From NCBI RefSeq assembly GCF_002210345.1, contig NZ_MWQI01000001.1, positions 186,001 to 250,000 on the forward strand: 64,000 nucleotides of DNA. The letters are read 5' to 3'. The position numbers and the translations under genes were made by a program. Positions 1,090 to 64,000 of the stretch are shown in pieces (position 1 is the first letter of the stretch; each line of letters opens with the position of its first letter). The notes beneath the pieces are model-generated. The model did not search any database and was not told the origin of the DNA. It saw only the letters and a program-made list of their open reading frames with translations. The DNA comes from Fibrobacter sp. UWB4. GTDB taxonomy: Bacteria; Fibrobacterota; Fibrobacteria; Fibrobacterales; Fibrobacteraceae.

Positions 1090-1153
1090 CAATCGTGTGT
1101 GCAAGTTGTAAATTGCTGAAAGTTATTAATTTGCAAAATAAACGAGTTTGATT

Positions 1154-2581: not shown

Positions 2582-2610
2582 ATGATATTTTGCAATAAAC
2601 GAGTTTGATT

Positions 2611-15502: not shown

Positions 15503-16060
15503 AAAGTAGTCGTTAGTCATTAGTCGATCGTTATTAGTTAGTAGTGAATTTAGAAAAATGCAGACATCCTGGCCCATCGCCGTCATCCTGACGCTGAAAG
15601 CGGAAGGATCCAGTGAAGTCTTGTTGTTGGTGGAGTGTGACTGGATACTTCGCTGCGCTCAGCATGACGGGAATCAAGATTGCATGCTGGGTCCAAAAAC
15701 ACAAATGCGTAGGCCGAGAGTCGCGAAAGAGGATGGTGTGGGCAAAAAAAACACAAATGCGTAAGGCGAGAGTCGCGGCCATGCTTGCATGGACATGACC
15801 GAGCCGTAGTGTTTGGTTTTTTGACCCTTTGGGTCAAAAACAAAAGGACTTCCGGTGGAGTACAACCGGAAGTCCGAGGGATGGGATTGGGTGTTCCTTT
15901 AAATTAAGCAATTTTTTTTGAAAGCGTATCACCTAAAAAATAAAAAGTGTTCTCGAAGTGTTCTTTTTTGCCGAATTTAGAATGGTATAGGGCATTTTTT
16001 CGGTATGTTTTCAAAAACAGGTGTTCCCAAAAATTTCAAAAAAAATTAGATTTCTTTTTG
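15503..16060. repeat. repeat-filled intergenic region
   Basis: This gap holds no gene. It contains TTAGTCATTAGTCG-type short tandem repeats (15503-15550); a short composite palindromic element from GTCATCCTGACG to GCTCAGCATGAC (15582-15668); a near-identical direct repeat of ACAAATGCGT plus CGAGAGTCGCG (15700-15726 and 15751-15777); an inner module GGCGAGAGTCGC...ATGACCGAGCC (15765-15805); a perfect hairpin TTTTTGACCC/GGGTCAAAAA (15817-15840); and an 11-bp-stem hairpin GGACTTCCGGT/ACCGGAAGTCC (15846-15875). The last 180 bases are AT-rich and should hold the promoter of the next gene. Confidence 0.75.
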
Positions 16061-22456: not shown

Positions 22457-22880
22457 TACAGCATCGTCATCCTGAACGCGGAGCGTGAAGGATCCAGTTA
22501 TATCTGGTTTGTAGAACAAGACTTGACTGGGTTGGGCTAAAGCCCCCAACTCTTTGGCTCGGTTATAAAAATGAGCCAGCTCATTTTTGCAACACTCGCC
22601 TTCTGAGTTGTCCTCACTTCGTTCGGAATGACGGTGAAGCATCGTCATCCTGAACGGCAAAACTGCTCGTCATCCTGAACGCGGAGCGTGAAGGATCCAG
22701 TTATATCTAGTTTGTAGAACAAGATTTAACTGGGTTCTTCGCTACGCTCAGAACGACGAGATTTTGACTTCGACTGGGTTCTTCGCTGCGCTCAGAATGA
22801 CGAAATTATAACTTTAACTGGATTCCTCACTTCGTTCGGAATGACGGAGATGCTACGGAATGACGGTGTTCATAAAGGAA

Positions 22881-34421: not shown

Positions 34422-34632
34422 AAGCCTGAAGAATCCAGTTAAGTTAAGTAATTACAAGATTTGACTGGATGGGGCAAGCCCCAACTCTTTGGCTCGGTTA
34501 TGCCCATGTAAGCATGGTCGCAACACTCGCCTTTTAAGTAGTCTTCCACCTTCGGTGTCAGGATGACAATGTGTGTGACTTTACTGGATCCCTCACGAGA
34601 GGGTGGTGCCCGCTCGGTGGCGGGCATGACAA
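34405..34632. repeat. composite palindromic element, full length, plus hairpin
   Basis: 34405-34568 is a 164-bp full-length element: GTCGTTCTGAAGGC...GAATCCAGTT, GACTGGATGGGGCAAGCCCC, inner module CTCGGTTATGCCCATG/CATGGTCGCAACACTCGCC, end GTGTCAGGATGAC. It overlaps the end of hisN. 34608-34632 is an inverted GTCATGCCCG-type hairpin. Confidence 0.78.
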
Positions 34633-49354: not shown

Positions 49355-49417
49355 AAACTTTTGCGCAGGGCAAATAGTTTAACGGAAGAATAAGAAAAGG
49401 AATTGAATAGGCTATTC

Positions 49418-52400
49418 ATGACGAATGAATCTCAAATGAAACCTAAGGATTGGGCAGATGCTCATGGATTGAAGGTTGATGTGGTGATGAAGCTGCTCCG
49501 CGATGCAGGCGTTGCAGTTCGTACCCATATGTCCAAATTGGATATGGCAGACTTTGCTAAAATCGAGGATGCTGCCGCTGCCGAAAAACAGAAGCAGGAT
49601 GCCCGCAACAAGAATCTCAAGAGGCCTACAGCTTCTGAATCTGATTCTTCCGCTTCCGCTCCTGCAAAGAAGAAGGAAACGTCGGTTGCGACGAACAGAC
49701 TTGGCTTGAAGGTGAGCCTCAAGAAAGGCCCGGGTCCTCGCAAGGAGGCTCCGAAGCCTGCTGCTAAACCGGAATTGAAATCTCCGGTTGCAAAACCCGC
49801 TGCTCCGGCTACCGTAAAACCGGCCGCCCCGGCCCCGGCACAAGTTGCTCCGAAGCCTGCCGCACCTGCTCCGGCTCAAGTGGCTCCTGCCGCTCCGGCA
49901 CCGAAGCCTGCAGCACCTGCTCCCGCACCGGCCGCAGCACCTGCTGCTCCAGCCGCACCGGCTGTAAAGCCCGCTGCTCCTGCCCCGGCCCCGGCACCGC
50001 AGGCAAAGCCTGCCGCCCCGGCGCCTGCACCGGCTGCCCCGAAGCCCGCTGCTCCTGCTCCGGCTGTAAAGCCAGCCGCTCCGGCCGTCGCAAAGCCCGC
50101 TGCTCCGCAGCCGACAATGATGTCTGCTTCTACGGAACTCAAGCAGCCGCCGATGAAGGCTCAGGTCTTCAAGCCCGATGCTGCAATCCTTGCCCGTATC
50201 GAAAAGTCTCGCCAGCAGGCTCAGGCCGCTCGCAACAACCATCGCCCGAATGGTGGAAATCGCAATGGCGGCAATGGTCAGGGTTACACGGGTACGTTTG
50301 GCCGTCTCTCGAACAACGGCAACGGCGGTAACGACAACCGCAACAATAACAACAATAATCGTCGCCCGAACGGCGGTAACGCTAGCAGCAGTAGCCGCGG
50401 CTATACCGGTCGTAACGGCGGATTCTCCAGCGGTTCCATGCAGGAAGCTTTCAACGCTTCCAACAACAATAACCAGGCTCTCGGCCAGAACAACCAGAAC
50501 GGAAAGGGCAATGGCAAGGGCCAGAACGGCCGCCACGGCAACGACAAGAACCGCCGTAGCAATACTAAGGACCGTCAGGAAATGCAAAGGGAACAGCAGC
50601 AGGAAGCCGTTCGTCAGAACGTCTCCCGCGTGATGGCATCCCTCTCCAAGAACCCGGTCAAGAAAGTTTATCACAAGGAACATTCCGAAAACAACTCGGG
50701 TGAAGAAAAGAAGATCCTCAAGACTTCTGACTTCATTACCGTGGGCGAACTCGCAGGCCTCATGGACCAGATGCCGGCACGCGTCATTGCAAAGTGCATG
50801 GAAATGGGCATGATGGTGACCATCAACGCTCGCCTTGATTTCGAAACGATCCAGATTTTGGCTGATGAATTCGGTTACGAAGCTCAGCTGATGGAAGAAT
50901 ACGAAGAAGAAGCTCTCGGTATCGAGGAAGAATCTCAGGAAAATCTCCAGCCGCGTCATCCGGTGGTTACCGTCATGGGCCACGTTGACCACGGTAAGAC
51001 TTCTCTCCTCGACTGGATTCGTAAGACCCACGTGGTGTCCGGCGAATCGGGTGGCATTACGCAGCACATCGGTGCATACGAAGTCACCACCAAGCAGGGC
51101 AAGGTTACCTTCCTCGATACTCCGGGTCACGAAGCCTTCAGTGCTATGCGTGCTCGCGGTTCCCAGGTGACCGACGTTATCGTTCTCGTCGTGGCTGCAG
51201 ACTCCATGGTCATGCCGCAGACGGTTGAATGTATTGAACTTGCAAAGCGCGAAAACGTCCCGATGGTCGTCGCCATTACAAAGATGGACCTTCCGACCGC
51301 AAACCCGGACAAGATTCGCGCCCAGCTCGCAGAACGCGGTGTGGAAGTCGAACAGTGGGGTGGTCAGACCAGCTGTATCGAAGTTTCTGCACGTACGGGT
51401 CAGGGCATGGATGTCCTCCTCGAAACGCTCGCTCTCGAAGCTGAAATTCTTGAACTTAAGGCCAATCCGGATACGCATGCCCGTGGCGCTGTCGTTGAAT
51501 CCAAGCTCGACGTGGGTAAGGGTTCCATGGCTACGATCCTCGTGCAGAACGGTACGCTCCATGTGGGTGACCCGTTTGTTTGCGGTATCTACGCTGGCCG
51601 TGTCCGTGCCATGTTTAACGAACGCGGTGAACAGATGAAGGAAGCTCCTCCTTCTGCTCCGTGTCAGGTGCTCGGCTTTGATGGTACTCCGCAGGCCGGT
51701 GACGAACTTGTCGTGGTGGAAGACGAAAAGACCGCACGTGAAATTGCTTCCAAGCGCCGTATGGCCGCTCGTGAACGCGATCTCCGCGCCCGTAAGACGG
51801 TCTCTCTCGAAAACTCCTTCAACGCAAAGAAGGAAGGTACGCTCTCCGAACTCAACCTCATCGTCAAGGCCGACGTGGGTGGTTCTGCAGAAGCTTTGGC
51901 CGCTTCCCTCGAAAAGCTTACCAACAAGGAAGTCCGCGTCAACATCATCCGCAAGGGTGTGGGTACGATTACGGAATCCGATATCCTGTTTGCAACGACC
52001 GCACAGGCTATCATTATTTCCTTCCACCTTATGCCGTCTCTCGCTGTCCGCGAAATGGCTCAGAAGGAAGGCATCGAAATCCGCAACTACCGCGTGATTT
52101 ACGACTGCATTGAAGATATTAAGAACGCTGTGGAAGGCCTCCTCAAGCCGATCATGCGCGAAGAACTCGTTGGCGAAGCCGAAATCCGCCAGGTGTTCAA
52201 GGTCCCGAAGGTCGGTCTCATCGCTGGCTGTATGGTTACCGACGGCGAAGTCGACCGCACGAGCCATGTCCGCGTTTACCGCAACGGTATCGAACTCGGT
52301 ACGACCGTGGTCCAGTCCTTGAAGCGCATGAAGGACGACGTCAAGTCTGTTGCTCGTGGCTTTGAATGCGGTATCGGCCTCAAGGGTTACGACGATATCA

Positions 52401-52534
52401 AGGAAGGCGATAGCCTCATCTTCTTCAAGGAAGTCAAGGTCGCCCGTACGTTGGAAGACGTTGCCCGCGAAGAAGCTGAAGAAAAGGCAAAGAAGGCTGC
52501 TGAAGAAGCTGCCGCAGCGAAGGAAAACGCTTAA
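49418..52534 (+). CDS. infB: translation initiation factor IF-2
   Basis: A protein of about 1038 residues. After an N-terminal IF2N-like domain (WADAHGLKVDVVMKLLRDAG) comes a long low-complexity linker: Pro/Ala repeats (about residues 105-235) and an Asn/Gly-rich part (about 270-380). The G domain follows (GHVDHGKTSLLDW at about 521, DTPGHEAF, ITKMD), then the IF-2 domains 2-4. It places initiator tRNA on the ribosome. The linker is longer than in E. coli and probably unstructured. ATG 49418 has AGG six bases upstream; TTG 49403 and ATG 49436 are alternatives. rbfA overlaps the stop. Confidence 0.95.
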   Translation: MTNESQMKPKDWADAHGLKVDVVMKLLRDAGVAVRTHMSKLDMADFAKIEDAAAAEKQKQDARNKNLKRPTASESDSSASAPAKKKETSVATNRLGLKVSLKKGPGPRKEAPKPAAKPELKSPVAKPAAPATVKPAAPAPAQVAPKPAAPAPAQVAPAAPAPKPAAPAPAPAAAPAAPAAPAVKPAAPAPAPAPQAKPAAPAPAPAAPKPAAPAPAVKPAAPAVAKPAAPQPTMMSASTELKQPPMKAQVFKPDAAILARIEKSRQQAQAARNNHRPNGGNRNGGNGQGYTGTFGRLSNNGNGGNDNRNNNNNNRRPNGGNASSSSRGYTGRNGGFSSGSMQEAFNASNNNNQALGQNNQNGKGNGKGQNGRHGNDKNRRSNTKDRQEMQREQQQEAVRQNVSRVMASLSKNPVKKVYHKEHSENNSGEEKKILKTSDFITVGELAGLMDQMPARVIAKCMEMGMMVTINARLDFETIQILADEFGYEAQLMEEYEEEALGIEEESQENLQPRHPVVTVMGHVDHGKTSLLDWIRKTHVVSGESGGITQHIGAYEVTTKQGKVTFLDTPGHEAFSAMRARGSQVTDVIVLVVAADSMVMPQTVECIELAKRENVPMVVAITKMDLPTANPDKIRAQLAERGVEVEQWGGQTSCIEVSARTGQGMDVLLETLALEAEILELKANPDTHARGAVVESKLDVGKGSMATILVQNGTLHVGDPFVCGIYAGRVRAMFNERGEQMKEAPPSAPCQVLGFDGTPQAGDELVVVEDEKTAREIASKRRMAARERDLRARKTVSLENSFNAKKEGTLSELNLIVKADVGGSAEALAASLEKLTNKEVRVNIIRKGVGTITESDILFATTAQAIIISFHLMPSLAVREMAQKEGIEIRNYRVIYDCIEDIKNAVEGLLKPIMREELVGEAEIRQVFKVPKVGLIAGCMVTDGEVDRTSHVRVYRNGIELGTTVVQSLKRMKDDVKSVARGFECGIGLKGYDDIKEGDSLIFFKEVKVARTLEDVAREEAEEKAKKAAEEAAAAKENA

Positions 52535-52887
52535 TGACTCGTAGAACCGATAGATTAGGCGAGCAGTTCCGCGAAGAAATCTCCAAGCTCATCCAGAAGG
52601 GCTTGAAGGATCCGCGCGTGAGCACTCTCGCGAGCATTACCCGTGTGGACATTACTGAAGACCTGAGCTATGCAAAGGCCCTCGTCTCGGTGATGGGTTC
52701 CGATAAAGAAAAGCGTGATACGCTTGTCGGACTCAACAATTCCGCCGGCTTTATCCGTGGCGTCTTGGGCAAGGCCTTGAAGATTTTCAAGGTTCCGGAG
52801 CTCAAGTTCGTTCTTGACGAAAATCTCGAACATGCCATGCACATTGAAGAAATCCTTGCAGAACTGAAGCAGAAAGGGGAACTTTAA
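52534..52887 (+). CDS. rbfA: ribosome-binding factor A
   Basis: A 117-residue KH-like protein: RTDRLGEQFREEISKLIQKGLKDPR at the start, SITRVDITEDLSYAKALVSV in the middle, and FVLDENLEHAMHIEEIL near the end, all typical of RbfA. It binds the 16S rRNA of immature 30S subunits. Its start overlaps the infB stop by one base (TAATG). Confidence 0.93.
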   Translation: MTRRTDRLGEQFREEISKLIQKGLKDPRVSTLASITRVDITEDLSYAKALVSVMGSDKEKRDTLVGLNNSAGFIRGVLGKALKIFKVPELKFVLDENLEHAMHIEEILAELKQKGEL

Positions 52888-53943
52888 TTGTCCTCTTCCG
52901 GCTTCGTCCTCTTGGACAAAATTGCAGGTGAAACATCTTTTAAGGCCCTTTTCCCTCTGAAAAGGGTCTTTTGTACTAAACGCGTGGGCCATGCGGGTAC
53001 GCTTGATTTGCGTGCAAGCGGGCTCATTATTGCTGCCACTGGTCGTGCAACGCGCCTTTTGCCCTACATTGAGGCGAAGGACAAGTGCTATACGTTCAGG
53101 CTCCACCTTGGCTACGAAACCGACACTTTAGAGTGGGACGGGGAAGTGGTTAAGGTAGACGACAAATGCGTGGGGCGAGAGTCGCAGCCATGCTTGCATG
53201 GATATGACCGAGCCCAGCATTTGGGACTTGAGCAAAGCGAAAGTCCAAAGACGAGAGACGAGAGTAGTTGTCATCCTGGAGCCGAAGGCGATAGGATCCA
53301 GTGCGGAGTGCCTTCGGTGACGCGCGCGGACCTCGAAGCGGTTTTGCCGCAGTTCATTGGCGACATTGACCAGGTTCCGCCGAATTACAGTGCTGTGAAA
53401 ATTGACGGCCATCGCGCAAGCGACTTGGCGAATCGTGGTCGTGAAATTGAACTCAAGCCTCGCCGCATTCATATCGAATCGCTCAAAGTCGTGGACGAGG
53501 GCAAGGTTACGGAAGGCTGTACCGGCAAGTGCTTTGCCACGTTTGATTTGGAATGCAATTGCAGCAAGGGAACGTACATCCGCTCGCTCGGTCGTGATTT
53601 GGCTCGTGCGCTTGGTACGTGCGGCTGCGTCTCGATGATCCGCCGCCATCGCATTGGTGATGTGACGGTAGACCATGCCGTTCGCGGGGACGCTCTCACG
53701 CCGGAACATTTGCTCCCTGTGGACCAGGTGCTTGATTTCCCGGTTGTCCGCTTGAATGACGACCAGGTGAAAGCGATTCGTTTAGGAAATTGGGTGCCGT
53801 GGCGCACTCCTGTTGAAAATTTAAGCACGACGCCAGGGGCGGAAAAGTTTGTCTTTACCGCTGATAAAGATGGCGCTGTGATTGGGCTTGGCGTTTATGA
53901 CCCGGGCCGCATTTGCCCCAAGTTCTTTTTAGGTGATGATTAA
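52888..53943 (+). CDS. truB: tRNA pseudouridine-55 synthase with a repeat-derived insertion
   Basis: TruB makes pseudouridine 55 in the T-arm of tRNAs. The 351-residue protein has GHAGTLDLRASGL with the catalytic Asp (about residue 39), LGYETDTLEWDGEV, QVPPNYSAVKIDG, GTYIRSLGRDLA and a C-terminal PUA-like region. Starts with TTG right after rbfA. About 52 residues (about 93-145) are encoded by a composite palindromic element at 53165-53321 inserted in frame between DGEVVKVD and VTRADLEAVLPQF, explaining why it is longer than usual (about 300). The insertion lies in a surface loop after a beta strand, and both flanks remain well conserved, so the enzyme is probably active. Confidence 0.92.
   Translation: MSSSGFVLLDKIAGETSFKALFPLKRVFCTKRVGHAGTLDLRASGLIIAATGRATRLLPYIEAKDKCYTFRLHLGYETDTLEWDGEVVKVDDKCVGRESQPCLHGYDRAQHLGLEQSESPKTRDESSCHPGAEGDRIQCGVPSVTRADLEAVLPQFIGDIDQVPPNYSAVKIDGHRASDLANRGREIELKPRRIHIESLKVVDEGKVTEGCTGKCFATFDLECNCSKGTYIRSLGRDLARALGTCGCVSMIRRHRIGDVTVDHAVRGDALTPEHLLPVDQVLDFPVVRLNDDQVKAIRLGNWVPWRTPVENLSTTPGAEKFVFTADKDGAVIGLGVYDPGRICPKFFLGDD
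53165..53321 (+). repeat. composite palindromic element inside truB
   Basis: Order of parts: AAATGCGTGGGGCGAGAGTC, hairpin CCATGCTTGCATGG, ATGACCGAGCCCAGCATTT (53165-53221); hairpin GGACTTGAGCAAAGCGAAAG; GACGAGAGACGAGAG tract; then GTCATCCTGGAGC...GATCCAGT...TTCGGTGAC (53270-53321). The same first block is present in intergenic DNA at 15751-15812. It is read through as about 52 codons with no stop. Confidence 0.85.
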
Positions 53944-53950
53944 AAAGGTG

Positions 53951-53975
53951 ATTCCCGATCAAGTCGGGAATGACA
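53951..53975. repeat. GATTCCCG-type hairpin
   Basis: ATTCCCG, loop ATCAAGT, CGGGAATGACA, in the 49-base gap between truB and ribF; matches the second hairpin of the repeat at 8922-8950. Confidence 0.6.
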
Positions 53976-53992
53976 GATAAGGTGATGATTAA

Positions 53993-54886
53993 ATGAAACG
54001 CGCTGTGACAATGGGTAATTTTGATGGATGCCATTTGGGGCATCAGGCGCTTTTTCGCACGCTGAAAGCGGTTGCCGAAGTGAACCATTTGCAGCCGACG
54101 GTCATCAGCTTTGAACCCCATTCCAATTATGTTTTGCGTGGGCCGGGCGATCCGTTGCTCCTCACGACGACCGAAGAAAAACGCGAATTTGTCGAGAGCC
54201 TTGGCATTGAATTTTTGGTTTTGCCGTTCACGAGCGAATTGGCTAAACTCCCGTTTGATAAATTTGTCCGCACGGAACTGATTGAAAAGCGCGAAGTCGT
54301 TTCGATGTTCTTTGGCCATGACCATTGCTTTGGTGCTGGCGGCAAGGGCAATTACGAGACGATTACCGCTGCGTTCCCGGAACTCTCGACGCAGATGCTT
54401 TCAATGGTTTTGCACAAGGGCGAACGCGTGAGCTCTTCTGCCGTGCGCAATGCTCTTTTGAACGGCGATGTGGACCGTGCGCAGACTTATCTCGGCCGTC
54501 CGTATCGCTTGTCCGGAACGGTTGTGGTCGGCAAACGCCTTGGACATACGATCGGATTCCCGACGGCAAATGTGCAGATGGAACAGTTCAAGTTCTTGCC
54601 GAAAGGCGGCGTGTATGTTGCAAGCGCTAGACTTTCGGATGGTCGCATTTACCGCTCCGTCGTGAACATCGGAACGCAACCGACAACGCCCGGAACGCAT
54701 AACCTTGCGGTCGAAGCGTATCTGCTTGACTTTAACGAAGACATTTACGGCCAGCACTTAGCGCTGGACTTGCTCGCCTTCTTGCGCCCTGAAAAGAAAT
54801 TCGCAAGCATCGAAGATTTGGTCCGCCAGATTGGCATGGATGCCGATACCGCCAAGAATTACAACGGAAATCACTGGGCGGAGTAG
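53993..54886 (+). CDS. ribF: bifunctional riboflavin kinase/FAD synthetase
   Basis: A 297-residue RibF: an N-terminal nucleotidyltransferase domain with TMGNFDGCHLGHQAL (the G-x-F-D-G-x-H-x-G-H motif) and SSSAVRNALLNGDV, followed by a riboflavin kinase domain starting GRPYRLSGTVVVGKRLGHTIGFPTANVQ. It phosphorylates riboflavin to FMN and adenylates FMN to FAD. Last gene of the rimP operon, separated from truB by a 49-base gap holding a small hairpin repeat. The gene is convergent with the RhuM-like gene, 17 bases away. Confidence 0.93.
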   Translation: MKRAVTMGNFDGCHLGHQALFRTLKAVAEVNHLQPTVISFEPHSNYVLRGPGDPLLLTTTEEKREFVESLGIEFLVLPFTSELAKLPFDKFVRTELIEKREVVSMFFGHDHCFGAGGKGNYETITAAFPELSTQMLSMVLHKGERVSSSAVRNALLNGDVDRAQTYLGRPYRLSGTVVVGKRLGHTIGFPTANVQMEQFKFLPKGGVYVASARLSDGRIYRSVVNIGTQPTTPGTHNLAVEAYLLDFNEDIYGQHLALDLLAFLRPEKKFASIEDLVRQIGMDADTAKNYNGNHWAE

Positions 54887-54903
54887 GGGAAGTTTTTGTT
54901 CCC

Positions 54904-55863
54904 TCATATTCCTTTGGTGCAATCTTCCACTTTTTTGACGACTTCTTCAGGTGTTACGAAATTAAGAATGCTGAATGCAGTCATTTCATTGCCCATATCC
55001 TTAAATGATGCTCCGAAGTGATATACAGTGTCATCTATAAGCAAAAAACGGTCGTGAATTGTACGCATCGTTTTTAATTCTAGTCCAGGATATTGTTTGT
55101 TGTGCAGCTTTTGGGCTTCCTTAAATTCTGGGGTGATTCGTGCTGCGTAGATGATTGCTGTAATGCCTTTTGATCGCATTGCTGCCAATTTTAGTACTTC
55201 GATTGTAGCAAACGGGTCTATGAATATAACTGAACGCTTGGCTTTTTTTACGAGGTCTGCAATCAAGACAAATCCATCGAAACGAGTTCCTGTTGCTAGA
55301 ATCCCGCTAGTTGGTGTTTGTGCCGATTTAATGAAGAAGTCTATATGTTGCTCTACTGTCGAAAGTCGGGAGTTTTGTTCTACGATGGTCTTACGAACAT
55401 CTGCGATTTCTGAACTCTGCTTTTCGATGAGCCGCTGTTGCTCGTGTAATCGATCTGCAATTTGTAGGTCTGTTGCCATTTTTCGTTGGTTGATGGCATA
55501 GCCCTTGAGCATGTAGTCTTTAAGAACTTGATTTGCCCAACGGCGAAACAAGGTGGCGTTTTTACTATTGACGCGATAGCCGATAGACAGAATTGCATCA
55601 AGGTTGTAGTATTTGGTTTCGTACACCTGTTTTGAATCGTTACCCATATGTTCCAAAACGGAACATGTGCTATCTTCGTCAAGTTCTTGCGATGCATAGA
55701 TGTTTTTTAAGTGCTTGGTAATTGCAGGACGTTTTGTCCCAAATAGATCTGCTATTTGCGCCTGTGTGAGCCAAACGGTTTCCTTTTCAACGCGTACTTC
55801 TAGCTTGGTTTCGCCCTCCGGCTGATAAAGTACGATTTCACCAGTTTCTTCGTTCTTGTTCAT
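54904..55863 (-). CDS. RhuM-family protein with C-terminal PLD-like domain
   Basis: A 319-residue protein. Residues 1-190 match the RhuM family (ETVWLTQAQIADLFGTKRPAITKHLKN, ILSIGYRVNSKNATLFRRWA, VLKDYMLKGYAIN), which carries a Bro-N/KilA-N-like DNA-binding unit. A coiled-coil segment (about 155-185) leads to a C-terminal domain with IFIDPFA at about 218 and IHDRFLLIDDTVYHFGASFKDMG at 269-291, resembling a single-motif phospholipase D-like nuclease (H-x-R...D). RhuM proteins are spread on mobile islands; the function is unproven and a role in defence or toxin activity is only a possibility. A structured element lies upstream at 55893-56029. Confidence 0.82.
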   Translation of the reverse strand: MNKNEETGEIVLYQPEGETKLEVRVEKETVWLTQAQIADLFGTKRPAITKHLKNIYASQELDEDSTCSVLEHMGNDSKQVYETKYYNLDAILSIGYRVNSKNATLFRRWANQVLKDYMLKGYAINQRKMATDLQIADRLHEQQRLIEKQSSEIADVRKTIVEQNSRLSTVEQHIDFFIKSAQTPTSGILATGTRFDGFVLIADLVKKAKRSVIFIDPFATIEVLKLAAMRSKGITAIIYAARITPEFKEAQKLHNKQYPGLELKTMRTIHDRFLLIDDTVYHFGASFKDMGNEMTAFSILNFVTPEEVVKKVEDCTKGI

Positions 55864-56666
55864 TTTCTCCTACGACGCAATAGATATTGTTGTAAAAAAT
55901 GCCGGGCGAGCATGGCGCCTGCCATGTTCAATCGGTATCGCGAGATACTCTTTCACCCCCCCGGCGTAGGTGTACCGGCTTCACCAAATGTCGTTGCCGT
56001 AGCAGAGCGACCCCCCGGTATTGTTTTTTCGATGAAATTAAATAATGTGCGGAATCGGAGCAATAGCTGGAACTTTTGGTAAAAATGGCAAGAAAGGATT
56101 GTTTTTAATGTCTTTGCTTTCGATTTCATTAAAAAACTTCGTTTTTTGCGAAATTTGGGGGATTGGGGTGGGTCTGATTCAATGTGTGTAAAATTTTGGA
56201 AATGAATTTTAGTGTTGTTTTATTCTAATTTGGAATAGCATTATCAAGGATTTTTGTCAAAAAAAGCATTTTTTGAGGAGAATGGGTGGTCAATTGTAAA
56301 TTTATTGAATGATGTAATCGTTTTTAAGCTATCTTTAGAGTGTATAAAGAGTTTTTGCTCTTGTTCTTTGGACGAAATCTAGACAATTTCTCTAACCGAG
56401 AACAAGGCGAACGCTCACGCAGGCATACCGTTTTGCGGTATGTTTCAGTTTGCTGTACCGACTATGCAGTCGGTCTTTGGCCGTATGGTCAGAGGGCAAC
56501 AGCCCTTTGGGGGCGTGGGTCGTTTGTGTTTGTCGGTTAGTGGCAGTCTAGAGCCCCGTTCAGATAAATGCAACGATCTGCGTCCTTTTTTGTATTCTCA
56601 AAAATCGGCCAAATAATTGCTTGCAAGGGAGAAACTCCATAGGTGTATAAACAAATGGAGGCTGTT
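55864..56666. other. gene-free region with hairpin arrays
   Basis: No gene is supported. 55893-56029 holds a two-sided structured element (see separate entry). 56030-56340 is AT-rich without obvious signals. 56423-56510 contains three tight hairpins in a row: GCATACCG/CGGTATG, ACCGACT/AGTCGGT and AGGGC/GCCCT. The last 100 bases are the leader of the FISUMP lipoprotein, with GGAGG at 56657-56661. Confidence 0.65.
55893..56029. other. back-to-back structured element with outward T-runs
   Basis: On the minus strand GCCGGG (55965-55960) pairs with CCCGGC (55906-55901), enclosing GTATC/GATAC and CATGGC/GCCATG hairpins and followed by ATTTTTT. On the plus strand TACCGG (55973-55978) pairs with CCGGTA (56015-56020), enclosing GTCG/CGAC, followed by TTGTTTTTT. 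Each half looks like a branched terminator or small RNA 3' end. Confidence 0.5.
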
Positions 56667-58154
56667 ATGGCTACTAACGGAATGTTCAATGCAATCATCA
56701 CGAAAGTGACATTGACCTTTGTATTTCTCCTTGCGGCCTGTGGCGGTGGTGACAGCGGTAATCAGGCTGTTGCTCCTGAAAATGGTAGCGAATTATCGTC
56801 TAGCTATGATTATGGTAATGGTGCATTCACAACATCGTCTTCATTTGGTTTCGTAAATCCTCAATCAAGTAGCTCTGTTCAGTTCTTTTATGGGTCTTCT
56901 AGCTCTTTTCTGATTTCTTCTCCATCATCTAGTTCTAGTCAGATTTATTCGAAGTCATCGACTTCTATAGTGAAAAGTTCCAGCTCCAGTAAAAAAATAC
57001 AGTCTTCGTCATCTGTGAAGAAAAAATCTAGTAGCTCGTCTGTTCCTTATAGTTCGATGACCGATTCTCGAGATGGACAAACTTACAGAATTGTCAATAT
57101 TGGCAAACAAACATGGATGGCTGAGAATTTGAATTATAAAATAGAGGGGAGTTACTGCTATTTAGGGAAAAATGAATATTGCGATAAATATGGTCGATTG
57201 TATGATCGGGGGGCTGCTTTTATTGCATGCCCTAGTGGGTGGCATTTGCCGACAACTACAGAATGGTTTACTTTGAATAGTTATGTTGGTGGTGAAAGCG
57301 GAAAAAAACTTAAGTCAAAAAGTGGCTGGGATAAAAATGTTAAAGCATTGGATTCGTATGGTTTTTCTGCTCTTCCTGCAGGTTATGCGTTATCTGATAT
57401 AAAAGGATATACATGCGAAGGAAAGCAATCGCGTTTTTGGAATTATGATGAAAATAGTATTTTTTCTTTTTTTGAGATAGATAGCAGTGTTGCCGCAACC
57501 GTTTGGCAAATGAAAAGTGATGAGCATACATATGCTTATTCTATTCGTTGTCTTAAGGGAAAGGCTACATACATTTTGCCTTCGTCAAGTAGCAATGTTT
57601 CCCTTTCTTCTTCCTCCTATTCAAAATACTCTTCCTCTCAAAAAAGTTCTTCATCACGTTTGTGGTCGGAACATACGATGACAGACAGCAGAGATGGAAA
57701 GATTTATAAAACAATACTTTATGGGTCTGGTACTGGAACTACCCTTTTCGAATGGATGGCTGAGAATTTGAATTACTCAGAAATGGGTGTATGTGATGTC
57801 CATGACAATTGTAGCGAATATGGACGATATTATACTTGGAACGAAGCGTTACAAGCTTGTCCCCAAAATTGGTCTTTACCAGACACTTCTGAGTGGAAAA
57901 AATTCACTAAGATTGCATATGGAGACGGAGCCTTATTAGATAGTTTTTCTGCTGCTAAAGGAGGATTGATGATAGATTATCTTGCTACTCATCATGATCG
58001 TATGTACTCCTACTATTGGACTCGATCGACTGGTTTAAACGGAGGTAAACCAATCTATGCATCTTATTGGTCTTTCAAGAGCACAGCATCAGGATCTTGG
58101 AGTGCTCCTAGAGATTACCGCATTCCTGTGCGATGCATACGCGTCTACTACTAA
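56667..58154 (+). CDS. FISUMP-domain lipoprotein with two domains
   Basis: A 495-residue lipoprotein (lipobox LAAC; Cys about 28). It has Ser-rich linkers (about 60-128 and 313-336) and two copies of the FISUMP domain (Fibrobacter succinogenes major paralogous domain, TIGR02145), each starting M-T-D-S-R-D-G-x-x-Y and containing WMAENLNY, CPxxWxLPxxxEW and a C-terminal IRCL/VRCI. First domain about 130-300, second about 337-495. The domain is a surface-exposed module of unknown ligand found in very many copies in this lineage. ATG 56667 is chosen for GGAGG five bases upstream over GTG 56643 and ATG 56655. AT-rich like the next gene. Confidence 0.9.
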   Translation: MATNGMFNAIITKVTLTFVFLLAACGGGDSGNQAVAPENGSELSSSYDYGNGAFTTSSSFGFVNPQSSSSVQFFYGSSSSFLISSPSSSSSQIYSKSSTSIVKSSSSSKKIQSSSSVKKKSSSSSVPYSSMTDSRDGQTYRIVNIGKQTWMAENLNYKIEGSYCYLGKNEYCDKYGRLYDRGAAFIACPSGWHLPTTTEWFTLNSYVGGESGKKLKSKSGWDKNVKALDSYGFSALPAGYALSDIKGYTCEGKQSRFWNYDENSIFSFFEIDSSVAATVWQMKSDEHTYAYSIRCLKGKATYILPSSSSNVSLSSSSYSKYSSSQKSSSSRLWSEHTMTDSRDGKIYKTILYGSGTGTTLFEWMAENLNYSEMGVCDVHDNCSEYGRYYTWNEALQACPQNWSLPDTSEWKKFTKIAYGDGALLDSFSAAKGGLMIDYLATHHDRMYSYYWTRSTGLNGGKPIYASYWSFKSTASGSWSAPRDYRIPVRCIRVYY

Positions 58155-58180
58155 CAAACCCTAAAATAAAGGTGTTCTTT

Positions 58181-59083
58181 ATGAATTCAATGTTTTACAA
58201 ATTTCTTCATGATGATGAAAATCATACTGTTTTGAAAAGTTGCCTTGATGGTAATTTACTGTTTTCGCGTATTCCCGAGTTGAATGATTTTTCAGAAACT
58301 TTTGCTGTTGCGGATAAAGAAGAAATTGATCGTTCTTTGGCTGAAATGCGGCGAGATGGATGTAGTGAAGAGGAACAAAGATGCTTTTATGAACATGTAG
58401 AGTTGATGGAAAAAGTTTTTCCCGAATTTAAGAATGTTTTTGAGTCATTTAAATCATTGAATCTTTCGCGACCTTTTCCATTTTCTCAAATAGGTGGACT
58501 GATACAAATGGTTGCTGGAAATGGGTTGGAAATTAATCCCTTAAATAAAATGATGAATATTTTGCCAAGTTTTTTGCAGTTGACGAATGAGCTAATCCAA
58601 GATAGAGTTGGAATTTTTTGCGTGTCAGAAGATGTTGATAATTTTCCAATGTGGGCTCATTATGCCGATAATGCAAAAGGTTTTGTCGTAGAGTATAAGA
58701 ATCTTGAGGTGCTTTTTTGCGGCGATGGAACTAAAATGTTGAATCAAATTCAGGAAGTTGACTATTATGGGGTGGAACGTCCTGCTGTTTCATTAAAACC
58801 AGATAAATTGAATGCGTTGTTTTTCTCAAAACAGGGTAAATGGAGCTATGAAACTGAGTGGCGAGTTGTTAAGCCTCTCGCTGAATGTAAAAAGAAATCG
58901 GTGGGTTGCGGTAGCGAAAGGAGCTTTTTCAAGATGGAAAATCCTAAAGATTATATCAGTCGAATAATTGTTGGATGGAATGGAAATCTTGAAGAAGTAA
59001 AAAGTATTGTTGATGAAAAAATGGGTGTTCCTGTAGTTCAGGCTAATGTCGTTAATGGCAATATTGAAATCCCGCAAAAATGA
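58181..59083 (+). CDS. DUF2971-family protein
   Basis: A 300-residue soluble protein with the DUF2971 pattern: FYKFLHDDEN and LLFSRIPELNDFSE near the N-terminus, RVGIFCVSEDVDNFPMWAHYADNAKGFVVEY in the middle (W-x-H-Y-x-x-x-x-x-G-F), and W-S-Y-E-x-E-W-R-V. The family is common next to mobile and defence genes and has no assigned activity. ATG 58181 starts the conserved region; the frame from 58133 overlaps the previous gene. Its low GC matches the preceding FISUMP gene. A terminator follows. Confidence 0.83.
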   Translation: MNSMFYKFLHDDENHTVLKSCLDGNLLFSRIPELNDFSETFAVADKEEIDRSLAEMRRDGCSEEEQRCFYEHVELMEKVFPEFKNVFESFKSLNLSRPFPFSQIGGLIQMVAGNGLEINPLNKMMNILPSFLQLTNELIQDRVGIFCVSEDVDNFPMWAHYADNAKGFVVEYKNLEVLFCGDGTKMLNQIQEVDYYGVERPAVSLKPDKLNALFFSKQGKWSYETEWRVVKPLAECKKKSVGCGSERSFFKMENPKDYISRIIVGWNGNLEEVKSIVDEKMGVPVVQANVVNGNIEIPQK

Positions 59084-59109
59084 ATGAATAATTGCTTTTG
59101 TTCTTAGAA

Positions 59110-59138
59110 AAAACGGCAGGCATTTTGTCTGTCGTTTT
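59110..59138. terminator. terminator after the DUF2971 gene
   Basis: AAAACGGCAG, 9-base loop, CTGTCGTTTT (one G-T pair) then CTTT; flanked by A and T runs so it could act in both directions. Confidence 0.7.
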
Positions 59139-59240
59139 CTTTAGCTATAGATAAAGATATAGCTAAATTTAGCACAGAGACTTTAATTTCTAAGTGTTGC
59201 TAATCTACAAAATAGAATTTTAAAAGTCAAGCGACCTGTT

Positions 59241-62200
59241 TTACACAATCGTGTTGTCCAGGCAGAAGACTTCGGCGAGTTGCTTGTCGTCCATGTCGGC
59301 GAGCCATGTTTCGCCAGCGTTCACGGTCAAGTTGGCGATGGCTTTTTTGGTTTCGAGGAGGGAGTTGATCTTCTCTTCGAAGGTGCCTTTGGTGATAAAG
59401 CGGTGGACTTGGACGTTGCGCTTTTGGCCGATACGGAAGGCGCGGTCGGTGGCTTGCGCTTCGATGGCGGGGTTCCACCACAAATCGTAATGGATGACTT
59501 GCGAAGCGGCAACAAGGTTGAGGCCGGTGCCTCCAGCCTTGAGCGAGAGAATGAGCACTTTGCAGTCCGGATTTTCCTGGAAATCCTGGATCATTTCGGA
59601 ACGCTGCGTTTGTGTGCAACCGCCGTGGTAGAAATGCGTACGGAGGCCGAGTTCGCTTTCGATTGTGGATTTTAGCAGGTGCCCCATTTCGGCAAATTGC
59701 GTGAAGATGAGCGTCTTTTCGCCTTGCTCTTGGATGGATGTGAGGAGGTCCAGGAGCATTTGCATCTTGCCGGATTCGAGCTTGCTGGATTTAGGAACGT
59801 TGGACAAGACTTCACTGGATGGGGCTTCGCCCCTCCCTTTGGGCTCGGTCATGCCCAAGCCTGCTTGGTCGCGACACTCGCCTTTAAGGTAGTCTTCCTC
59901 CCGGTGATCGTCTGGATGACGTTGGGACGGGGAATTCGCGCTTTCTGTAGGGACTGCCGCGGCGTCTTGTGCTGAGGTTGCGGCGAGACCTTTCAGGAAT
60001 GTGGCGGGGTGGTTGCAGATTTGCTTGAGGGCAAGAATCATCTGCAAAATAATGCCCTTGCGCTTGAATAGTGCGTGGGCATCGTTTGCCTTTTCGCTGA
60101 GCGCCTGCTCCATCTCGAGCTCTTGCATAAAATGTTCAAGTGTCTTTTGATAAAGAGCGGCTTGTGAGCGCGTGAGTTCGGCGTATTCGTCTTGGATGAT
60201 TTTATCGGGCAAGTCGCTGATGATGCTCTTGTCGGTCTTGAGACGGCGCAGCATGAATGGTGCTGTAATTTTGCGGAATGTTTCGGCGACAATCTGGTTG
60301 CCGTTCTTTTGAATTGGCGTTTCGAATTTTTCGCGGAATTCACTTGCGCTCGGGAAGAACCCGTGGTTCGCAAAATCCATGATGGTCCAGAATTCCATAA
60401 GGCGGTTTTCGACCGGGGTGCCACTCATCGCGATTTTCATCGGGGCGCGCATGCGACGGAGCAATTTACTCTGTTCGCTATCGGCGTTTTTGATGTTTTG
60501 TGCTTCATCGATGATAATCGTTTGCCATTCGTGCTTGTCGAGTTCGGCAAAGTCCTTGCGGAACGTGGCATATGTCGTGAGCAATACGTCGGCGCTGAAC
60601 TTTTGTAGGTCGCGGCGGCCTCCGTGGTACGCAAAGAATGTGAGTTCCGGCGCGAACTTCTTGATTTCGACTTGCCAGTTGCAAAGGAGGCCGGCGGGCA
60701 TTACGACAATGGCTTTTTTCTCCGCGAATTTGCCTTCCTGTTTCATCTTGAGGAGGAACGTAATGACTTGCAGCGTCTTGCCAAGACCCATGTCATCGGC
60801 GAGTATGCAACCGAATCCGATTTCTAGATTCTTGTACATCCAGGAGTAGCCGCGCATTTGGTAGGGGCGGAGTGTCGCGTTTAGATTCTCGGGCAATGGA
60901 ATGTCCGTTTCGGCGCGCCAGGCGTCGAACTGTTGCTTGAAATCGCTTGCCATTTCCACCGGGATGTTGTCGCATTCACCGGTGAAGCAAGCTTGTACGA
61001 GTTTGGCTTGCGTGATTTCTGGAACGGAATCTTCTTCGAGGATTTCGTCGGCGTTTTCCGCGGCATTATCAGAAGACGTTCCCGCATCATCCCCAGCAGT
61101 TTTTTTGCCTTTGCCATCTTTGGCGTCTGCGCCAGACTTGCCTTCAATTTTATCGCGGATGGATTGCAAATCCTGTTCAGTAATTTGCACGTAACTGGAC
61201 TTGTATTTTAAAAGTCCGTCCGCTTGTTCTGCGAGTTCCAAAAATTCCTTTGCCGAAATGTTTTCGTCTCCAATCGCAATTTCCCAATCGAAGTCTAGCA
61301 AGTCTCCGGCTGTAAATGCACCAAAGCTCATGCTTCCTTGCAAGCGCATCTTGGGCTTCGGCTTTCCGATGTTCAAGAGGTTCTTTGGAATTTCCGTCTG
61401 GATGCCGAACAGTTGGAGTTTTTTGAGGCAATCCTGCAAAAATTCGAGGAGTTCGGCGCCTCGCATCAAAATCGGTTCGCTTGCTCGGCGTTCCAAGTAC
61501 GCATCGAGCGGCTTGAAGCCATCGGCAATGCCGTTCAGAACGCTCATAATCGAGAGCAATCGTGAGTCGTTGTTTTCGAATAATTCCGAAAGCGGCGTGC
61601 GTCTCGGGGCATTCACAGGTCCCGCCGCATTCCCGCTTGCACTCGCTGCATCTTCGTCAAGTACAAAAACGTCCAGTGCCACATCTTCGTCCATTTCGCT
61701 ACAGACAAAGAGAATCTGCGTGCGACAACCGAGGCAAGAATACACCGAGAGCCATTGCTGGATTTTCCCCGGAATGGCATGTGCGTTGTTTGCGAGCTTT
61801 CCTGAAACGCTATCGAAAAAGAACGAGAGCAAGTTGCCGTGATTCGTCTTGAGAGGTGTCTTGTATTTGCGCGCAAATTTCAAGAGCTGCGAGATGAACA
61901 GCGACAGAATGTGCTCGGCGGGCTCCGCAATTTCAAAGAAGGCTTCTTCTTTGCTTGTCCACGCGAGTTCTCTCGGGGCGGTGACTTCGAGGTCTGCGAC
62001 AATGTAGAGAATCTCGGGGAGCATCTCGGCGGGGAGCCAGCGCATTTGCGCTACGTCTTTCCCGATCCAGAAAACTTGCGGGTAAATCGCTCCGGTGCGC
62101 ACAAGGTAAAACGCCACTTGCAACATCAAGTGCAAGTAACGCACGGAGTAATGGTGCCACGAAAAATTCCCGGCGCTGAGGCAGCAAAGAGCGCCCATCA

Positions 62201-63320
62201 CGTTTGTGACGGTAAGATTGCTATTGATGACCTTGTCTGCCATGGACTGCTCGAAATTCCAATGCCATCCGGGCTTGTGGAATAGTCGCAGTTGCTCGTT
62301 TTCCATTAGGAACGTCTTTGCGTTGTTCACGCGGAACTGTTCCGAGAAAGCGTCAAAATTCTCGAAGTCGGTAAAGAACTTGTGGCACGATTCTAGTTCG
62401 TCCGTAAAACTCTTGCGGAAATTTCCGGCGGGGCAGAACTTCGGGAAGTTTTGCAACATCGCGGGCAGAATGTGCGAGTAGTCTTTCCAACTCTTGAAAT
62501 CGAATGTTGGCAGTTGCTTGGGTGGAATGCTGTTTTGCGATTCGCGGCCTGAGCCTTTATACCCACCAAATAAACTTGCGCTCGCGTCTTCCGCATGAGA
62601 AAGTTCGGCGGCGTTTTGGGCCTCGCGTTCATCGCTTTCTCCGGCGCTTCTCGCAACAGCACTATCTGCGCTTTCCCCATTACTTCCTGCGACATTCCCG
62701 TTTGCGGATGCATTCCCGGCGGCATTTTCGGCATTAGAGCCTACGAGTCTTGTTGCCTTGCTGAACGACCTCACGAGATTTGTTTCGCTGGGTGCTTCCA
62801 TTTCCATGGAGTCCGGCTTGTAGTCCTTGATAAAATCCAGGTCGAGTCCGTGAATCTTGAAAAGGACGTTCGGCTCCTTGTCCGCCTGTTCTGCGATTTT
62901 CAAAAACGTGGCGACGAGGTATTTGCACGGGCGTTCGTCACGGCAGTCGCAACCCATGTTGACTTTGGCCGGATCGTCAAAAAGCTGGAGGCCGCTTTTG
63001 CTCATCAAGAGTTCAAGCGACGGGCTAAGCGCCTTGTTGTTTAGGGCCAATAGTTCCGCAGGCTGCTGCTTCAAAAAGCTCACGAAAATTTCGGAAGATT
63101 CTTTAGAAAATTTCGGGAAGACGATGTAGTTGTTGTGGAGGCCTCCATTCGGGCCTTTCACCACGGAAATCACGCGGTTATCGACGATGTCGATGCTTGT
63201 GACCTGGCCCCGCGCGGCGAACTTGAGTCCTTGCAAAACAGCTTGATCGCTTGCTGTCGCAAGAATCGAGTTCAGCCATTTGTTTGCCCACCAAGTCTTT
63301 CCGTAATTTCCAAAATCCAT
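59241..63320 (-). CDS. SNF2-family helicase with degenerate SWIM domain and repeat-derived insertion
   Basis: A 1359-residue SNF2/RapA-like ATPase. An N-terminal region contains GCDCRDERPCKYLVATFL (about 122-139), a SWIM zinc finger in which the fourth ligand His is Tyr. An Ala/Ser-rich linker (about 200-250) follows. The ATPase core has ADDMGLGKTLQV (about 843), DEAQNIKN (about 937), MSGTPVENR and a helicase C domain ending ATDRAFRIGQKRNVQV. Residues about 1134-1174, between the two ATPase lobes after QICNHPATFLKG, are encoded by a composite palindromic element (59799-59920) read in frame. Such proteins remodel nucleic-acid complexes, often with transcription or phage defence; the exact role is unknown. 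Isolated gene. Confidence 0.9.
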   Translation of the reverse strand: MDFGNYGKTWWANKWLNSILATASDQAVLQGLKFAARGQVTSIDIVDNRVISVVKGPNGGLHNNYIVFPKFSKESSEIFVSFLKQQPAELLALNNKALSPSLELLMSKSGLQLFDDPAKVNMGCDCRDERPCKYLVATFLKIAEQADKEPNVLFKIHGLDLDFIKDYKPDSMEMEAPSETNLVRSFSKATRLVGSNAENAAGNASANGNVAGSNGESADSAVARSAGESDEREAQNAAELSHAEDASASLFGGYKGSGRESQNSIPPKQLPTFDFKSWKDYSHILPAMLQNFPKFCPAGNFRKSFTDELESCHKFFTDFENFDAFSEQFRVNNAKTFLMENEQLRLFHKPGWHWNFEQSMADKVINSNLTVTNVMGALCCLSAGNFSWHHYSVRYLHLMLQVAFYLVRTGAIYPQVFWIGKDVAQMRWLPAEMLPEILYIVADLEVTAPRELAWTSKEEAFFEIAEPAEHILSLFISQLLKFARKYKTPLKTNHGNLLSFFFDSVSGKLANNAHAIPGKIQQWLSVYSCLGCRTQILFVCSEMDEDVALDVFVLDEDAASASGNAAGPVNAPRRTPLSELFENNDSRLLSIMSVLNGIADGFKPLDAYLERRASEPILMRGAELLEFLQDCLKKLQLFGIQTEIPKNLLNIGKPKPKMRLQGSMSFGAFTAGDLLDFDWEIAIGDENISAKEFLELAEQADGLLKYKSSYVQITEQDLQSIRDKIEGKSGADAKDGKGKKTAGDDAGTSSDNAAENADEILEEDSVPEITQAKLVQACFTGECDNIPVEMASDFKQQFDAWRAETDIPLPENLNATLRPYQMRGYSWMYKNLEIGFGCILADDMGLGKTLQVITFLLKMKQEGKFAEKKAIVVMPAGLLCNWQVEIKKFAPELTFFAYHGGRRDLQKFSADVLLTTYATFRKDFAELDKHEWQTIIIDEAQNIKNADSEQSKLLRRMRAPMKIAMSGTPVENRLMEFWTIMDFANHGFFPSASEFREKFETPIQKNGNQIVAETFRKITAPFMLRRLKTDKSIISDLPDKIIQDEYAELTRSQAALYQKTLEHFMQELEMEQALSEKANDAHALFKRKGIILQMILALKQICNHPATFLKGLAATSAQDAAAVPTESANSPSQRHPDDHREEDYLKGECRDQAGLGMTEPKGRGEAPSSEVLSNVPKSSKLESGKMQMLLDLLTSIQEQGEKTLIFTQFAEMGHLLKSTIESELGLRTHFYHGGCTQTQRSEMIQDFQENPDCKVLILSLKAGGTGLNLVAASQVIHYDLWWNPAIEAQATDRAFRIGQKRNVQVHRFITKGTFEEKINSLLETKKAIANLTVNAGETWLADMDDKQLAEVFCLDNTIV
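59799..59920 (-). repeat. composite palindromic element inside the SNF2 gene
   Basis: Plus-strand reading: GACAAGACTTCACTGGAT, hairpin GGGGCTTCGCCCC, CTTTGGGCTCGGTCATG, hairpin CCAAGCCTGCTTGG, TCGCGACACTCGCCTTTAAG, TAGTCTTCC and final GTCTGGATGAC. It is the right two-thirds of the full-length element at 34405-34568, translated on the opposite strand without a stop. Confidence 0.85.
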
Positions 63321-63397
63321 GCGTTCAAATATAGTAAAAACTGCTCAAATGAACAAATGAATTGAGCTTGCTGGGGCTTAAAAAATAGCCTTGCTAT

Positions 63398-64000
63398 CTA
63401 TTCTTGTGGCTTGTTTTTTCTTGGAGAAATGGCGATGAAAACGAGAACGCTCACGAGAAGCAGGAATGGATAGAACATGTAGGGGATTACGTCAAACGCG
63501 CTGATGTTTGCGTCTGGAATTGCTGTCGAAATGGCTGCAAGCGCCACAAGCATTTGTGCACCGTAAGGCAAAATCCCTTGAACCACGCAGCTGAAAATGT
63601 CCAAAAGTGATGCGGTCTTTTTCGGCGAAATCCTGTATTCGTTACCCATTTGCTTTGCGATGGGGCCAGCCATTACAATTGCAACGGTGTTGTTTGCTGT
63701 TGCAATGTCGAGAGCGCTTACCAAAAGACCTACGCCCACCTGCCCGCTGCGGTGCCCCTTAAATACTTTGTGAATAAAGTCAAGTAACGCTGCAAAACCG
63801 CCGTGAATGCGGATGAGACCGCATAGAGCGCTCACCAGAACGGCTACAAGGATCGTTTCGTACATTCCGGAAATGCCGTTCCCGATGTTTTGTAAAAGTC
63901 CAATCATGTCGAGAGGTCCAAAGCATACCATAATCACGGATGCGGCGACAATGCCGACCAGCAGCACTGTAAACACGTTGATCCCCGTAAGGGCAAGCAC
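63398..64000 (-). CDS. NhaC-type Na+/H+ antiporter, C-terminal part (runs off the window)
   Basis: The last 200 residues of a membrane transporter whose start lies beyond base 64000. It has about five or six hydrophobic helices and the sequence VSALDIATANNTVAIVMAGPIAKQM (broken by S and N residues), typical of the Na+/H+ antiporter NhaC/YqkI group. The C-terminus is KNKPQE before the stop. A role in sodium or pH homeostasis is expected; substrate cannot be confirmed from this fragment. It stops 77 bases from the SNF2 gene on the same strand. Confidence 0.75.
   Translation of the reverse strand: MLALTGINVFTVLLVGIVAASVIMVCFGPLDMIGLLQNIGNGISGMYETILVAVLVSALCGLIRIHGGFAALLDFIHKVFKGHRSGQVGVGLLVSALDIATANNTVAIVMAGPIAKQMGNEYRISPKKTASLLDIFSCVVQGILPYGAQMLVALAAISTAIPDANISAFDVIPYMFYPFLLLVSVLVFIAISPRKNKPQE

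Follow-up and report, generated by a model that had tools for sequence, protein, structure and literature searches.

How does a dispersed palindromic repeat come to be read as protein within the gene of a large SNF2-family ATPase? The gene occupies 59241..63320 on the minus strand of the window, the 64,000-nucleotide stretch of the Fibrobacter sp. UWB4 genome analysed here. It encodes 1359 aa with Pfam matches to SNF2-rel_dom (7e-66), Helicase_C (2e-22) and DUF3670, all above cut-offs, and its closest orthologues come from Fibrobacter MAGs (93-95% protein identity). A covariance model (R1) built from 24 copies of the repeat in the same genome, the SNF2 copy being among those 24, matches 117 bases of the gene at 59805..59921 (minus strand) over the full length of the model (108.5 bits, E=2.6e-24), and a plain DNA search with the consensus of intergenic copies also recovers this copy (E=9e-15). 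The match and the translation bear out the original prediction of an in-frame, stop-free element, with its ends moved from 59799-59920 to the coordinates given here. The element, of type A in the classification below, lies in the sense orientation with respect to SNF2 and contributes 39 codons, translated as RHPDDHREEDYLKGECRDQAGLGMTEPKGRGEAPSSEVL.

Alignment with PDB chain 1z63 covers residues 3-304 and 373-545 of the SNF2 segment (numbered in the translated window segment 59244-60899). The gap between the two ATPase lobes, which is four residues in 1z63, comprises residues 305-372 in the Fibrobacter protein, and the 39 residues of the element fall within it, in agreement with the earlier estimate of about 40 residues at this place. 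The linker (59784..59987, minus strand) is predicted to be disordered: an AlphaFold2 model from 34 sequences has pLDDT <50 across residues 304-371, mostly without secondary structure. The ATPase motifs that flank it are conserved and intact in the alignment.

The repeat belongs to a family of complex palindromes, termed types A, B and S, that are scattered genome-wide in both orientations. Type A is ~112 bp long (range about 107-140 bp) and has the layout CGTCATYCTGA..GAAGAC-AACTC..GGCGAGTGTYGC..GCATRACCGAGCC..GAGTT-GGGGC..GCCCC-ATCCAGTNAAGTCTTG. The short module S, of about 30-40 bp, consists of the ends of type A alone (CGTCATCCTGAGCGAAGCGAAGGATCCAGT); type A is S with an extra hairpin core of ~70 bp, and in type B (~109 bp) this core is flanked by different arms. 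In the SNF2 copy the hairpin common to types A and B, GGCGAGTGTCGC...GACCGAGCC, lies at 59842..59882 (minus strand), as defined by alignment and covariation. Across the 24 copies, 98.8% of the proposed pair cells hold standard pairs, and there are 45 compensatory cells vs 13 in shuffles, the copies compared being paralogous. Both S and type A begin with CGTC/TGTC. The S consensus folds as CGTC(ATCCT..AGGAT)CCAGT, in which CGTC and CCAGT stay unpaired on either side of an AT-first stem; this stem contains tandem G-A mismatches and is not a perfect one of 8-9 bp. An Rfam scan of window positions 52500-64000 gave no match above the gathering score.

A covariance model search found 27 strong type A copies and about 50 weaker relatives in the UWB4 genome, where identity to one query copy is mostly 74-89%. 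Strong copies are present in 22/80 genomes of the genus Fibrobacter, with a patchy distribution. When 136 type A copies, read from stretches around model matches, were placed with an ad hoc gene caller, 120 fell between genes (59 tandem, 51 convergent and 10 divergent), 10 were intragenic and 6 lay at contig edges. In the window, intergenic type A copies are found on the minus strand at 34455..34568 (117.6 bits) and at 22517..22633 (100.8 bits), the latter adjoining further S modules (repeats D7/D8). An intergenic type B-like copy at 15737..15843 on the plus strand (60.5 bits) adjoins an S module at 15581-15623. The window also holds repeats of other kinds: two adjacent ORFs of 72-bp repeats with WYENGKLK-type units (1148-4140), between which a 272-bp block is duplicated at 78%; an Ala/Pro-rich (KPAAPAPA) tract at 49841-50086 within a 1043-aa ORF (49403-52534); and a Ser-rich, lipoprotein-like ORF at 56643-58154 with two repeated domains, presumably of a kind common in Fibrobacter as a major paralogous domain.

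The other coding copy noted previously lies in an ORF at 52888..53943 on the plus strand, which we take from its motifs to be the gene for tRNA pseudouridine synthase B (TruB); orthologues were recovered in 72/80 genus genomes. Its insert is a type B element (53158..53266, plus strand, in frame and sense), recognised by a core match at 53174-53216, by its in-frame translation and by orthologues that are devoid of it. The element has a strong palindromic fold (z=-4.2) and a 53-bp match of 92% to the type B-like copy at 15737..15843. It is followed by a CGTC-REP-like S module (53269..53303, plus strand, in frame and sense, translated as CHPGAEGDRIQ). This divergent S copy, folded alone, folds differently from the consensus. 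The original prediction placed the SNF2 and TruB copies in one family and in opposite orientations relative to the coding strand. They are related, having mainly a hairpin core of ~43 bp in common, but the TruB insert is type B plus S and the SNF2 insert is type A. Both are read in the sense direction, and it is the window strand alone that differs.

Compatibility with coding in more than one frame, also suggested previously, was found. Two sense frames are used, GGC GAG (KGECRD..MTEP) in SNF2, GluQRS and RNase HII, and G GCG AGA (RES..HDRA) in TruB, GT4 and others; the third sense frame has a fixed stop from CATGACC/CATAACC. Counted by gene, site and element type, core-bearing intragenic events number about 13 in sense vs 1 in antisense. 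The sense events comprise SNF2-A, SNF2-B, GluQRS-A, GluQRS-B, TruB-B and RNase HII-A, together with those in a PHP-domain-like protein (B), a membrane protein (A, B), a glycosyltransferase (A twice, B) and an elongation-factor-like protein (weak B), the gene names other than SNF2 being ones that we assigned by reading the sequences. The sole antisense event is a type A element in TilS of genome G052; this TilS-like gene (L178) contains several antisense repeat readings (RFAQDD, NETSLDGAKPQLFGS...). The excess of 13:1 has a p of about 0.001 at even odds and only 0.03 if the odds are set by intergenic copies between co-directional genes, which lean 2:1 towards sense (40 sense and 19 antisense). 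The sense preference therefore need not reflect selection at the protein level, since it is partly common to intergenic copies. The mean hydropathy of open frames is -0.65 in sense vs -0.16 in antisense, and the greater hydrophilicity of the sense readings may be the reason for the preference. A strict sense-only rule, which an automated scan (42/42 sense) had indicated, was overturned by the TilS copy and by antisense S modules in RNase HII. With S read either way in RNase HII and an antisense copy in TilS, orientation is a tendency among core-bearing forms and not a rule.

Only 3/27 strong copies in the UWB4 genome are intragenic, in frame and stop-free, as against about 4-16 expected. The expectation assumes 24 strong intergenic copies, an average of 1.33 open frames out of six and a length that keeps the frame in one case of three; it is 4 at a coding fraction of 0.70 and 16 at 0.90, and the gene caller's window value of 0.70 is probably too low. 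No excess of intragenic copies over frame survival was thus found among the strong copies of this genome, an outcome that the original prediction had named as one that would refute it: frame survival alone leaves no surplus that needs explaining. Should the true coding fraction lie close to 0.9, the genome lacks most of the insertions that the frame would allow, because of selection or because the elements avoid genes.

Comparison of the same loops among Fibrobacter species (L and G numbers denote loci and genomes) revealed species-specific presence and absence of the inserts. At the SNF2 site, L044 is near-empty (KGLDDNAAPQKSNKLE), L041/L042 have the same type A copy, L043 has type B, and L045 retains the remnant of a third repeat, of the GACGAGAG type. 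Since the segment is absent or swapped for other repeats in related species, it is recent and variable, not the ancient segment that would have refuted the original prediction. The TruB loop (after EWDGEVV) has no repeats in L331, S alone in L316, and S plus B in UWB4. In the GluQRS loop (after YQGKC), S is found in L291/L294/L292, type B in L279/L280, and type A in UWB4 with the same surrounding codons as in L292. The occurrence of S in L292 and of A in UWB4 at the same point indicates that A is S plus the core, or S is A minus the core, and the reading frame is preserved either way. The RNase HII loop (after EVKGS) holds S in UWB4, type A in L196/L181 and antisense S in L347/L354/L367.

Further repeats, GGTTCGACAGGCTCACCAACC, GTCATCCCCGCGCAGGCGGGGATC, TCACAATTCAAAATTC and others, occupy the GluQRS loop in other species. 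Three repeat types were checked, and each filler is dispersed in the genomes that carry it at 38-75 copies per genome (56 in G017; 75, 38 and 39 in G014, G055 and G047; for the third type, 54 and 53 in G026 and G028, with 0 in G000), the exceptions being G061 (9) and G020 (7). In one glycosyltransferase gene, different species carry a type A sequence at two separate positions, with identity over 104 bp. In that gene, the sites are at 1683-1792 and 2001-2114 in L226 and at 2001-2114 in L245/L246, and the second site holds type A in G054 and the short S module in L245. A DNA topoisomerase I-like gene of UWB4 (L169, 397-1100) contains two in-frame S modules together with several DERRETRDER-type repeats. 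From these sequence comparisons, we read the pattern as one of a few tolerant loops that are filled repeatedly by whichever repeats a genome carries.

In most pairs of orthologous type A copies the identity is 91-100%, as against mostly 77-94% for the flanks, and it falls abruptly at the borders of the element (for example L217/L218/L219, L252/L253, L268/L277, L222/L227/L229 and other pairs). Over 20 locus pairs, taken from the strongest model matches and so sampled in favour of conserved copies, the elements have a mean identity of 97.4% (range 86-100), as against 58% and 73% for the 25 bases on each side and 62-86% for more distant flanks. In SNF2, GT4 and RNase HII pairs, 0-8% of third codon positions differ inside the elements vs 19-42% in the flanks, and for TruB-B the values are 0-6% vs 10-26%; the UWB4 SNF2 copy has three differences from its relatives, all synonymous. 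Counterexamples exist, in that some loci with matching flanks have elements just 77-86% alike. Neutral decay of the insert is contradicted by the high identity of orthologous copies, synonymous sites included. The suggestion that only neutral insertions survive stands insofar as the survivors lie in disordered or variable loops, but the orthologous copies are too conserved for it. The conservation could be caused by nucleic-acid constraint, by exchange between species or by repeated insertion at the same site.

We consider it very probable that the coding copies are mobile-type palindromic repeats, forming a modular Fibrobacter family, that are tolerated in flexible loops. Simple tolerance of inert DNA would not lead one to expect conservation above that of the surroundings, so the identity of orthologous copies counts against this explanation and lends weight to another, in which the in-frame elements are kept for a nucleic-acid function, as a structured RNA or a DNA site at each locus, and their coding is incidental. 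The contrast with both adjacent and distant flanks, the scarcity of third-position differences in SNF2, GT4 and RNase HII and the strong covariation among paralogous copies all speak for such a function. However, copies within one genome differ much, their distribution is patchy, the same loops hold unrelated repeats in other species, recent spread or interspecies exchange could equally yield identical copies, and the pairs compared are biased towards conserved ones. We therefore hold this account to be a possible but rather doubtful one. In a more specific version, type A copies would be locus-specific functional elements under strong constraint, orthologous copies both between and inside genes retaining almost all of their bases, silent codon positions included, beside freely diverging DNA; the in-frame ones would then be regulatory RNA or DNA inside essential genes, a reading that we likewise entertain only tentatively.

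Filling of the hot loops by slippage or by copying of neighbouring simple repeats, without mobile elements, would account for fillers that are themselves simple repeats (AGACGAGAGACGAGAG, AGTCGGAAGTCGGAAGT, TCACAATTCAAAATTC), yet the complex palindromes of types A, B and S are spread over the genome in both orientations, and the 104-bp identity of type A at two sites of one glycosyltransferase gene in different species is at odds with it; this origin seems unlikely. There is least to recommend an old, lineage-specific linker with a coincidental likeness to the repeat. SNF2 proteins do differ in length here, human INO80 having about 270 residues at the same interlobe point in the alignment used for 1z63, but the full-length covariance match with both ends, the plain DNA match and the absence or replacement of the segment in closely related species refute a reading that we now regard as extremely improbable.

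According to the tolerated-repeat explanation, a modular family of short mobile-type palindromes (S, A, B) would reside mainly between genes and sometimes enter them. Survival within a gene would need a frame-keeping length, a stop-free reading (available in two of the three sense frames and some antisense ones) and a site in a flexible loop, such as the SNF2 interlobe linker or the loops of GluQRS, TruB and RNase HII. There the insert would supply a peptide, hydrophilic and disordered, that the protein can bear while staying active, and the loops would serve over long periods as landing sites where repeats build up, are exchanged or grow. Copies may move or swap by recombination between similar repeats; no moving enzyme for them was identified in the genome.

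By its anatomy, we file S as a CGTC-type REP. CGTC-tagged REPs, which include Rickettsia RPE-4 and RPE-6, have intragenic copies in several species, among them copies in tRNA pseudouridine synthase B genes, and are not known to have a dedicated transposase (Di Nocera et al. 2013, PMC3733652). As in those repeats, whose tag may also be TGTC or CCTC, S has an unpaired CGTC, an AT-first stem and a CCA tail, type A lies mainly between co-directional or convergent genes (59 and 51/120), and the Fibrobacter repeats have intragenic copies, TruB included. The REP length of 20-40 bp fits S and is exceeded by types A and B, which are compounds; unlike the known REPs, the Fibrobacter module also occurs as the ~112-bp compound with a covarying core that is type A. 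GTAG-REP/RAYT systems are similar in their short, high-copy, extragenic palindromes, whereas the tag here is CGTC and the repeats do not flank Y1 transposase copies. A RAYT origin found no support: the only Y1 transposase of the genome belongs to an IS200-like element, present as two identical 719-bp copies (C1 and C7; L338/L339, 1321-2039), whose hairpin ends resemble none of S, A and B.

Types A and B we file as compound elements that work like RPEs, a likeness in behaviour. RPEs, the classic in-frame palindromes, are described through PMC2229807 and PMC3767692 as 100-150 bp long and found between genes and in frame in conserved genes (Ogata et al. 2000, 2002). TruB is also an RPE target (PMC3733652), and orthologous genes of R. 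japonica have RPEs of different groups close to the same site (PMC3767692). The Fibrobacter elements similarly enter conserved genes in frame (SNF2, GluQRS, TruB, RNase HII, GT4 and others), but they do so in another phylum, and a loop holds unrelated repeat types that correspond to those which the genome itself carries. ERIC/RU-1 and other bacterial MITEs are structured elements of ~100-200 bp with stop-free frames and occasional in-frame intragenic copies (Delihas 2007, PMC2229807). The Fibrobacter elements resemble them in size, structure and stop-free frames, a likeness of description. As regards the terminal inverted repeats and target-site duplications of MITEs, no clear duplication was seen at SNF2, TruB or GluQRS, where the junctions have diverged.

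We found no earlier description of these repeats in Fibrobacter in the open-access papers searched, which is not proof of absence. Five phyla were listed for CGTC-tagged REPs in 2013, and Fibrobacterota (Fibrobacteres) was not among them (PMC3733652). The finding is thus a variant of a known habit of in-frame palindromes in a phylum outside that list. Most descriptions of coding palindromes have come from Rickettsiales, in which they could be put down to genome decay. Here they occur in a gut phylum that does not belong to that group, and numerous relatives with sequenced genomes show the loops in their before and after states: empty, short, long or holding another repeat. The unexpected conservation of the copies raises the question of selection on 'selfish' DNA. 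The system allows direct tests of how selfish repeats turn into protein sequence, of which loops take them up, and of whether peptide chemistry selects their orientation and frame.
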